Source: Candidatus Dadabacteria bacterium (GTDB taxonomy: Bacteria; Desulfobacterota_D; UBA1144; Nemesobacterales; Nemesobacteraceae). Taken from it: a DNA stretch of 64,000 nt. The DNA lies in the NCBI GenBank assembly GCA_951812735.1, contig OX638332.1, forward strand, positions 752,732-816,731, read 5' to 3'. Within the stretch, counting starts at the first letter, position 1. The number at the start of each line of letters is the position of its first letter. Of this stretch, positions 43,567-46,563 are shown in pieces. Both the position numbers and the translations under genes were made by a program. The notes below the pieces were generated by a model. It was not told the DNA's origin. It saw only the letters and a list, made by a program, of their open reading frames with translations, and made no database searches.

Positions 43567-43720
43567 TCCGAATCCCCCTCCCCCATACGGGTGGAATGAA
43601 TCAGGGTCTCAGAAAAACATAGAGTTTTTCCAAATACGGTTTTCAGCCAAGGTAGTAAGTACATGCTGTTTAAAGCCATCTATACACCTGAGACATCAAC
43701 AATCTGATTCCCCCGGTGCC

Positions 43721-45121
43721 TCAATACTTGATGTCGATTAAATACCCTGTGCACCCGGAGCATGAAAATCCGTCTGGAGTTTTGTGTTCTCTAAGAGCTC
43801 TGGAAGAGGTTTTTCTGCGGAATTTTTTACCGCACAGACCACACTCGAGAATGTAAATCGGTCCATAGTTCCGCGATATGGATCTTGACGTATTACTTAT
43901 AGAAGATCGCATGGACCTTTGTGTCTCCTGCACAGCAATCGGGCCTGTCGGAATAAGTTCAACCTCGTATCTCGGCGAAAAATTCTGTCCAGTAATTTTG
44001 GCACCTTCAATCCGATCAACGCGGTAACTGCGGTGTGCACCGCTATCCACATTCCATGCGTGCAGGATGAAGTTGCCTTCTTTTGTAAGCCGCAAAGAAT
44101 ACGGTTCGATCCGTCGAGTCCGGCTGGCGTAGCCAAGATCGACACATAGTCTGTTAGCAGCGGCAAATCGAATGATTTCAAGGTAGGATTGCGCATTGCC
44201 AACCAGTGGCAGATTTAGGGTGCGTTCACGAATAATAGTATCGCCACGCTCAAGCACATAGGAAAGAGGATCTCGAGGAGACAGGGTTCCGCCAAGCCAG
44301 GCAAAAAGCTCCGGCAACACGTTCCAAAATGTAGCCACCGGCGGTAAGGCTGGAAGCTGGTGCTTCAGCATCGTATCCCATGCGCCTTCAAGGTCGCTTT
44401 GATGTTCATCAAGGTCTCCGTGTTGCGGTACTGAAATACCCTTGAATTCGCATTTCTGAGTAAGAACATCAAACAGTACCGAAGCTGAAGGTCTAGCTTC
44501 GGCGTTCCTGAACAAGTTTACAACATCGTAGAGGTCACGCGGTCTTGTACGCTCGGCAAGGGCCCTGATCTTTTCGGCGAAGACCTCTTCATATGCATAG
44601 GCCAGAACTTTTATGCCTTCGGCCGGGGCATCATTATAGGGGTGCCAGATTGACATCTGTACCGGCGGTAAGACAAGGCGTTCGTCAGCCGTAAGATCAA
44701 GCTTGATTCGTGGCAACCCCCCGGAGCTTGGAGAAACCGGGCCGCGATAGCTTAGTTTAGCCTGACAACTGAGACTTCCTCGGGGATTCTCATAAATATC
44801 AAATGACTGCAAGTCCACAGAAAATTCGAGACCGATTTGCTGGTAGATCCACTCCGATATCTCTTTAAAAACCCGCCGCAAGAACTCTTCATTGAGATGA
44901 TCTTCCACTAAGAGCGTGAAATCAAGGTCTTCGGAAAACCGATAGGTTTCAAAATAACATTTCTTGAGGCAAGTCCCACCCTTAAAAACCCAACTCTTGG
45001 CCAGTTCTCTATGGTTAAAAATTCCTGCCAACATCCAACCAAGCGCATAGTCTTTCTCGACAATACTTGGATTGAGCCTGATTGTGGCCGCAATTTTCAG
45101 AAGTTCCCGCTTTGGAATCAC
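43721..45121 (-). CDS. AbiEii-type nucleotidyltransferase toxin fused to a WYL-like domain and a zinc finger
   Basis: AbiEii is the toxin of a type IV-style abortive infection pair, a nucleotidyltransferase. The N-terminal catalytic part has GGTCLKK (48-54), SEDLD (63-67) and the AEKIRALAERTRPRDLYDV block (about 182-200). The protein is 466 residues, far longer than the usual 250-300. At about 312-392 it has a WYL-like segment (RRIEPYSLRL, LHAWNVDSG, YRVDRIEGAKI). The end has CGLC, His and CSGC (Cys427, 430, His446, Cys454, 457), a zinc finger. GTG start at 45121 overlaps the antitoxin stop (GTGA), with AAGGAG 8 nt upstream. Confidence 0.82.
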   Translation of the reverse strand: MIPKRELLKIAATIRLNPSIVEKDYALGWMLAGIFNHRELAKSWVFKGGTCLKKCYFETYRFSEDLDFTLLVEDHLNEEFLRRVFKEISEWIYQQIGLEFSVDLQSFDIYENPRGSLSCQAKLSYRGPVSPSSGGLPRIKLDLTADERLVLPPVQMSIWHPYNDAPAEGIKVLAYAYEEVFAEKIRALAERTRPRDLYDVVNLFRNAEARPSASVLFDVLTQKCEFKGISVPQHGDLDEHQSDLEGAWDTMLKHQLPALPPVATFWNVLPELFAWLGGTLSPRDPLSYVLERGDTIIRERTLNLPLVGNAQSYLEIIRFAAANRLCVDLGYASRTRRIEPYSLRLTKEGNFILHAWNVDSGAHRSYRVDRIEGAKITGQNFSPRYEVELIPTGPIAVQETQRSMRSSISNTSRSISRNYGPIYILECGLCGKKFRRKTSSRALREHKTPDGFSCSGCTGYLIDIKY

Positions 45122-45930
45122 GTGTTGACTCCTTGACGAGCCCACATGTTGGTCACCCACAGACGCCAGCGAGTAATTAGCCGAGTACAACGGAGGCTTG
45201 GATCCAAGAGAGCATTGCCTTCGGTAAGACGTGCTCTGCAGGCGGCTATCAATTCAGTTCCCTTTTGCGAACGTTCCGCAAGAAATCCAAGGCGCTTGAA
45301 AACCGCTCCATTGCCAATGCGGTCAGCATAATCGATCAGTTTGTTTGGATCGCTGTCTCGCCGTTTCATGTATTGTTCGAAGCAATCGGCAACATGCTGA
45401 ATACCTCCTCCAACAGCGGGTTTATTTAGCATGTCAACGATTGTCCTGTGTATATCGGAAACCTCTATCCTAGTCTGTCCGCGCCAGACAAATTCAGTAC
45501 CAAAAATCTGGTCATCGCGAACAGGAAAAAAGGTGAACACAACTCCTTGCCGTTTGAGTGATTTTACTCTGGACCGCCGAGTCGTAAAGACTACAATATC
45601 CCTGAATATCTGTTCGGTGAGATCCCAATGCTCAGCGGCAGTGTATCCGCCAATGTATGCCGGATCAAACAAGGCAGGAACCAAAACCCAAGGGTCTTGA
45701 ACGACTTGGTCTGTATCCAGCATCTCAATCTGGACCGGAACATAGGTTCCGACACCTACGCGCCGCAACCATCCTTGCTCTGTCCAACGTGACAGCACCT
45801 TGGCCGCCTGAGTACGGGAGAAATTAAGGGTACGTACCGCATCGTCAATAGTCACAACATCACCAGCAGCCTTAACCACTGCTACAAGCTTCGCTCTTCC
45901 TGCAGGTAAATGTATATTAGTTTCCTTCAT
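45118..45930 (-). CDS. AbiEi-type antitoxin / autorepressor
   Basis: AbiEi represses its own promoter and neutralises the AbiEii toxin. The 270-residue protein has an N-terminal winged helix (VVTIDDAVRTLNFSRTQAAKVLSRWTEQGWLRRVG, about 25-59) and the AbiEi C-terminal domain with YIGGYTAAEHWDLTEQIFRDIVVFTT and the SDIHRTIVDMLNKP block. It is first in the operon; GTGA overlap with the toxin start. The operator-like repeats upstream fit autoregulation. Codon and base use differ from neighbours, which suggests acquisition. Confidence 0.85.
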   Translation of the reverse strand: MKETNIHLPAGRAKLVAVVKAAGDVVTIDDAVRTLNFSRTQAAKVLSRWTEQGWLRRVGVGTYVPVQIEMLDTDQVVQDPWVLVPALFDPAYIGGYTAAEHWDLTEQIFRDIVVFTTRRSRVKSLKRQGVVFTFFPVRDDQIFGTEFVWRGQTRIEVSDIHRTIVDMLNKPAVGGGIQHVADCFEQYMKRRDSDPNKLIDYADRIGNGAVFKRLGFLAERSQKGTELIAACRARLTEGNALLDPSLRCTRLITRWRLWVTNMWARQGVNT

Positions 45931-45988
45931 GCTATATTAATATACCTTAAATTCGCAAAAATCAAGAATTTATATCATTTTAATATAC
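45912..45988. promoter_or_regulatory. Three TAATATAC sites around the abiE start: candidate autorepressor operator
   Basis: TAATATAC occurs at 45938-45945 and 45981-45988 on plus and at 45912-45919 on minus. The middle copy lies in the palindrome TATATTAATATA (45933-45944), just upstream of the antitoxin start. AbiEi proteins bind repeats in their own promoter. No other copies were noticed nearby. Confidence 0.5.
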
Positions 45989-46164
45989 TAAACAATTCGA
46001 GACAGTCAAGTGATAAAAATTCTCTGTTGTTTATGTGGAACAGGAATGAGTAGTGCTCAGAATTTTTCGCAAATTCAAACTTAAGTACATATTATTTACT
46101 TCTCAACCAATTTAAATATGCTCTTGAAAGATGATTAACCGATATAACATTTACTTAAGAGATC

Positions 46165-46506
46165 ATGACTGCCAGAAACTTACTAAATATTGCCCCTCCG
46201 TACGCGGTTGAACACGCACTAAAGCGCCTTGGTGGCAACCTGCGTACCGCTAGGCTTCGCAGAAACCTGACGATCAAGCAGGTAGCGGAAAAGATCGGTA
46301 CTGGCCCTCGTCCGGTTTCCGATGCCGAAAAAGGTAAGCCCTCAACCGGCGTCGCCGTCTACATTGCTCTTCTCTGGGTTTACAACCTGCTTGAGCCTCT
46401 GGATCAGGTTGCCGATCCGACCTTGGACGAAGAGGGGTTGGCAATACTGATGAAAGGGGACCGCATCCGCGGCCGTGGAACAAAAAGCTTGGACAATAAT
46501 TTCTAG
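46165..46506 (+). CDS. XRE/HipB-like helix-turn-helix protein without a partner toxin
   Basis: The 113-residue protein has an XRE helix-turn-helix at about 26-60 (LRTARLRRNLTIKQVAEKIGTG), preceded by ALKRLGGN. Close family members usually precede a HipA-type kinase toxin. Here the next gene, 57 nt on, is nadE, so the toxin is missing. It may be a lone repressor left over from a HipBA module. It is in the low-similarity accessory stretch next to the abiE operon. Confidence 0.72.
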   Translation: MTARNLLNIAPPYAVEHALKRLGGNLRTARLRRNLTIKQVAEKIGTGPRPVSDAEKGKPSTGVAVYIALLWVYNLLEPLDQVADPTLDEEGLAILMKGDRIRGRGTKSLDNNF

Positions 46507-46563
46507 TGGCCCGTAAGTCGAAGAATTCTCGAAATATCCCGCCGTTGCAAGTATAATTTCCAG

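Follow-up and report, generated by a model that had tools for sequence, protein, structure and literature searches.

Does a WYL domain that is fused to an AbiE-type toxin gate this toxin, or does control lie with the antitoxin encoded next to it? The question is raised by a two-gene operon in the window, that is, the whole stretch of 64,000 nucleotides of a Candidatus Dadabacteria genome that was analyzed here. A preceding sequence-only reading had proposed a toxin with a built-in sensor; a self-gated toxin is indeed possible. The best overall explanation, to which we assign a probability of roughly 0.7, is a hotspot-acquired AbiE type IV operon in which AbiEi would repress transcription and neutralise the toxin, the nucleotidyltransferase (NTase) toxin would act on tRNA and the WYL domain would serve as a nucleic-acid module.

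The operon and its control region

The toxin gene (43721..45121, reverse strand, GTG start at 45121) encodes a protein of 466 amino acids composed of an AbiEii-type NTase, a WYL domain and a zinc finger. The gene upstream (45118..45930, reverse strand) codes for an AbiEi antitoxin and autorepressor of 270 amino acids, which is matched by Pfam AbiEi_4 and by the PADLOC model PDLC02271 (E 4.9e-127). Length, strand, coordinates and Pfam match agree with the AbiEii-type toxin of about 466 residues with N-terminal NTase motifs that had been described from the sequence, and the GTGA overlap claimed for the two genes is seen as the four bases shared by the antitoxin stop and the toxin start (45118-45121). 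An NCBIfam search with the toxin returned no match.

The NTase core spans residues 30-266 (44324..45034, reverse strand) and is delimited by Pfam AbiEii (E 1.8e-39), motif conservation and fold match. According to the motif definitions of Dy et al. (PMC3985639), motif I corresponds to G48-G49, followed after 15 residues by motif II (D65-L66-D67, with R61 and S63), motif III to K184/R191 and motif IV to R195-D196-x-x-D199. All four motifs, including hG[G/S]-x15-DhD, are invariant or almost so across 75 homologues. An AlphaFold2 model computed from the 75-sequence alignment reached a mean pLDDT of 88.5, with a disordered linker at residues 395-418. The best Foldseek match of the NTase part is MenT3/TglT (Rv1045), which shares 13% identity with the toxin but comprises only about 290 amino acids and has no WYL domain. 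Residue S63 occupies the S-x-D position of the MenT phosphoacceptor, and the S/T-x-D position is phosphorylated in MenT toxins (PMC11375011). The NTase relatives MenT and Serratia AbiE act on tRNA (PMC10435456, PMC7725324), and by analogy tRNA is most likely the substrate here.

AbiEi lies immediately upstream of the toxin gene in all of 81 main-clade loci, which are the best 80 of 236 relatives and a copy on a Thiodictyon plasmid, and the two genes are joined by short overlaps in most of them. Distances among the toxins and among the antitoxins are tightly correlated (r=0.90, n=75). The features by which AbiE type IV systems are recognized were found: an AbiEii/DUF1814 NTase with motifs I-IV, an upstream AbiEi winged helix-turn-helix (wHTH) gene in the same operon and candidate inverted-repeat operators. 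Judged by these sequence features, the operon is most likely an AbiE type IV toxin-antitoxin system, and toxicity and antitoxin action are predicted for the AbiEii/AbiEi pair. Gene order, overlap, wHTH AbiEi, four NTase motifs and inverted repeats before abiEi are shared with established AbiE systems such as that of Streptococcus agalactiae, from which the window pair differs by a toxin that is about 190 residues longer, owing to the WYL domain and the finger, and by its own operator sequence. The pair thus belongs to an established type of AbiE toxin-antitoxin, well conserved and extended by accessory domains.

Comparison of homologous upstream regions unveiled a predicted operator, the dyad AATTC-N11-GAATT, of which the window holds one exact copy (45950..45970, reverse strand) at -40 from the abiEi start. 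With up to two mismatches the dyad occurs in 72 of 79 upstream regions (11.8 expected from shuffles) and with up to one mismatch in 37 of 79 (1.0 expected). The spacer of 11 is specific, as the other spacers from 5 to 17 yield 10-30 of 79. At least two sites, typically near -40 and -110, are present in 26 upstream regions, an arrangement reminiscent of the repeat pairs to which AbiEi-type antitoxins bind (PMC7319586). A different element had been suggested before, namely three operator-like copies of TAATATAC. These copies exist (45912-45919, reverse; 45938-45945 and 45981-45988, forward), and the window has no further exact copy, but just 10 of 79 upstream regions contain the element, and the orthologue in the same-genus genome G022 keeps one copy. 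TAATATAC was therefore rejected as operator in favor of the dyad. A promoter-like site, TTGACT-16-TATATT (45982..46009, reverse strand), matches the consensus with a count not above that of shuffles; its -10 hexamer sits within the TAATATAC copy at 45981-45988.

The operon arrived as an insert of 2.9 kb (43580..46508), as deduced from empty sites in sister genomes, where the flanking genes, a CPBP-type gene on the left (named by eye) and an NAD synthetase gene, are adjacent. This hotspot (43579-46509 in the window, and loci L147-L157) is empty in seven sister genomes, carries a DUF4143/AAA ATPase in G018 and G021 and HipBA in G025, and in G022 holds the same AbiE operon with 87.6% DNA identity and a toxin gene frameshifted near its start. 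Transfer had been proposed earlier from deviating base use; the deviation exists but is mild (GC 0.474 versus a window mean of 0.503), and the empty sites support transfer better. The insert also contains an orphan HipB-like HTH gene (46165..46506, forward strand), 78% identical to HipB of the HipBA pair in the G025 hotspot. No HipA gene lies beside it, and three are found elsewhere in the genome.

The WYL domain and the zinc finger

The WYL domain covers residues 308-392 (43946..44200, reverse strand) and is defined by Pfam, AlphaFold2, Foldseek, an alignment with PafB and conservation. Pfam WYL matches residues 313-375 and, at 32.2 bits, clears the cut-off of 21.8; the name-giving letters W-Y-L read F-I-L in the window toxin. 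Foldseek aligned this part with PafBC, CapW, BrxR and DriD, in some cases at about 1.9 A over 75 residues. When the C-terminal model was submitted alone, the top 30 matches were WYL proteins, and Hfq and Sm folds followed in the tail. A WYL-like segment at about residues 312-392 had been called by eye, with the proviso that a fold search beyond residue 290 might find no WYL fold; this outcome is excluded, and the combined evidence from Pfam, AlphaFold2 and Foldseek proves the domain calls right.

In mycobacterial PafB, the variants R211A/R214A, R181A and R181A/R204A/R208A abolish binding of single-stranded DNA (PMC11804915). A profile of the WYL domain alone aligned only weakly with PafB (E 0.25), with agreement in fold; in this weak alignment R336, R364, R367 and R370 of the toxin correspond to R181, R208, R211 and R214 of PafB. 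These groove arginines, which make the groove positively charged, are kept in 66-73 of 75 homologues. Four of the six ssDNA-binding residues of PafB are thereby matched, while Y196 and R204 are replaced by I352 and S360. The groove looks able to bind nucleic acid, and the fused domain most likely represents a nucleic-acid-binding module. The WYL fold and the groove arginines are common to PafBC, CapW, BrxR and DriD, but in those transcription factors they are accompanied by an HTH and a WCX domain, whereas in the toxin an NTase precedes the WYL domain and a finger follows it.

The C-terminal zinc finger (residues 421-466; 43724..43861, reverse strand) has the putative ligands C427, C430, H446 and C454, which are conserved in nearly all homologues that have the finger and from which metal binding is predicted. 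It had been read as CxxC...H...CxxC. The finger is present, but only the window copy has C457, the cysteine that completes the second CxxC; of about 73 homologues with a finger, 60 have an arginine at this position. The second CxxC was hence rejected as a metal ligand, and the finger is of the CCHC type. Searches of the PDB with its sequence gave generic C2H2 matches only. Six main-clade homologues stop near residue 395-419 and have no finger, and the tree places finger losses at at least three separate positions. The same CxxC..H finger was also observed on small unrelated open reading frames at three loci (L182, L183, L185); at L182 it is encoded on the other strand, close to a terminase-like gene.

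Spread of the fused form

A scan of bacterial and archaeal genomes for the same fusion yielded 236 relatives. Most of the best 80 align over residues 1-466 with 46-71% identity, and these 80 come from Alpha-, Gamma- and deltaproteobacterial, acidobacterial, planctomycetal, nitrospiral and other bins. The WYL domain is present in every relative examined, including those without the finger, in a search that favored full-length matches. The fusion is not unusual: a widespread AbiEii subfamily has it as its constant architecture. Among AbiEii proteins in general it is a minority: in one acidobacterial class with 299 genomes, AbiEii occurs in 148 genomes and about 20 carry the fused form (23 with a match to the WYL-finger part), and the AbiEii open reading frames listed there mostly measure 270-370 amino acids. 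The suspicion that the long form might simply be the ordinary AbiEii length thus holds within its own subfamily and fails for AbiEii at large.

The fusion of WYL and AbiEii was already published in 2014. Makarova et al. (PMC4012209) reported WYL combined with an 'AbiGII-like nucleotidyltransferase (DUF1814)' and suggested ligand sensing, i.e. the same domain pair and the same hypothesis; in the main text of that paper the fusion is merely listed, the terms 'zinc' and 'AbiE' are absent, and finger, operator and antitoxin link do not appear. A literature search for WYL together with DUF1814 gave nothing beyond this article. PADLOC likewise covers the subfamily: model PDLC02317 spans residues 1-397 with NTase and WYL (E 4.5e-197), but it stops before the finger and is labeled just AbiEii. 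What can now be named for this subfamily are the WYL arginines and a candidate operator. The AbiE system of Mesorhizobium huakuii was considered as a member with the fused form and rejected, since its constructs, with 1.42 kb for the gene pair and 0.7 kb for abiEii, are too short.

The genes that flank the family loci vary; by raw count, 98 flank proteins include some type I restriction, recombinase and Cas1 genes. No linked signal generator was found among the main-clade loci. A phage collection contained no relative. Relatives of the fused toxin are encoded on three IMG/VR contigs (L098, L099, L100; 63%, 41% and 37% identity), and phage-like elements may thus be carriers of the operon. At five loci (L157 in G022, L031, L038, L043, L074) the toxin gene shows frameshifts or early stops while AbiEi is open, a sign of toxin decay. 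Among the same-genus genomes, G020, G021, G022, G023 and G025 each contain several AbiEii-like matches and others none.

Sensor, docking arm or passenger

In the proposed mechanism, AbiEi would act on the AATTC-N11-GAATT dyad close to the promoter to repress the operon, and it would also neutralise the toxin. The toxin is an NTase with a DNA-polymerase-beta fold, of MenT/AbiEii type, which most likely attaches nucleotides to the 3' ends of tRNA and thereby would stop translation. Of the mechanisms considered for the WYL domain the likeliest is that a putative ligand, either a nucleotide product or some single-stranded nucleic acid that arises from phage infection or stress, binds to the groove and alters NTase activity, upward or downward; the finger may provide an extra grip on RNA or DNA. 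Such gating by the WYL domain, for which the kept groove arginines and the antitoxin-free sister clade speak, is a serious possibility, if somewhat short of even odds. Against the mechanism stand the two unmatched PafB residues, the variable flanks and the missing signal generator at the main-clade loci. The presence of AbiEi in all 81 main-clade loci implies that the WYL domain has not replaced the antitoxin and that any WYL gate is insufficient to control the toxin in the main clade.

The same constancy of AbiEi would also be expected if the antitoxin were the sole control and WYL domain and finger were constitutive RNA-binding arms that place the 3' end of tRNA or another RNA, conferring specificity rather than sensing. 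This reading, a credible minority option, is favored by the Sm/Hfq-like nature of the WYL domain as a nucleic-acid binder, with Hfq and Sm folds in the Foldseek tail, by the likeness of the finger to C2H2-type nucleic-acid-binding fingers and by the tRNA-directed activity of the NTase relatives cited above. However, most WYL domains tested to date are regulators, ordinary AbiEii and MenT toxins lack both arms, so that the arms are not required for tRNA targeting generally, and the antitoxin-free sister proteins described below require some other control. The two modules might instead contact AbiEi or the operator DNA and link toxin level to repression. The tight co-evolution of toxin and antitoxin and one study in which AbiEii expression raised the abiEi transcript (PMC7725324) fit such a role, which nevertheless appears improbable, as type IV AbiE systems were defined in the founding study by an absent toxin-antitoxin contact (PMC3985639) and sister proteins that lack AbiEi altogether retain the WYL domain, some of them with the finger. 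That the operon is a hotspot remnant devoid of present function is more improbable still: the hotspot is variable, the G022 toxin is frameshifted and an orphan HipB adjoins, but the window copy is intact with all motifs and the operator, and the family is conserved across phyla.

Since AbiEii is fused here to a domain for which ssDNA binding is established elsewhere, the subfamily offers a direct test of nucleic-acid gating of an AbiEii toxin, and the antitoxin-free sister clade offers a natural comparison. It consists of about six distant NTase-WYL proteins without AbiEi, some of which keep the finger, with 27-28% identity to the window toxin (three measured) and 37-78% among themselves. The broader proposal that WYL-fused AbiEii proteins are ligand-gated tRNA NTase toxins reading ssNA or a cyclic nucleotide via the groove, the sisters being stand-alone self-gated defence effectors, is rather unlikely as a whole; for the antitoxin-free loci themselves built-in gating is plausible, but the cases are few. 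The adjacent CD-NTase expected for a CBASS effector is missing from the window insert, and a cyclase occurs only beside one distant sister, which follows directly behind a CBASS-type cyclase (L083:2529-5236). Relatives of this Streptomyces cyclase reside on plasmids of Arthrobacter and Rhodococcus, genera absent from the named records of the toxin search (20 of 21 named), and the CBASS pairing therefore rests on one case. Searches of viral contigs with the sister proteins gave no match. The clade is rare and frequently located among defence genes: one copy lies beside HNH and Gabija genes (L221:6586-15302), another beside the PADLOC candidate PDC-M70 (L084:4001-8420) and a decayed one near a WYL regulator and a ThiF/JAB gene (L220:4525-9758), while the copy at L085 stands alone and that at L222 is broken.
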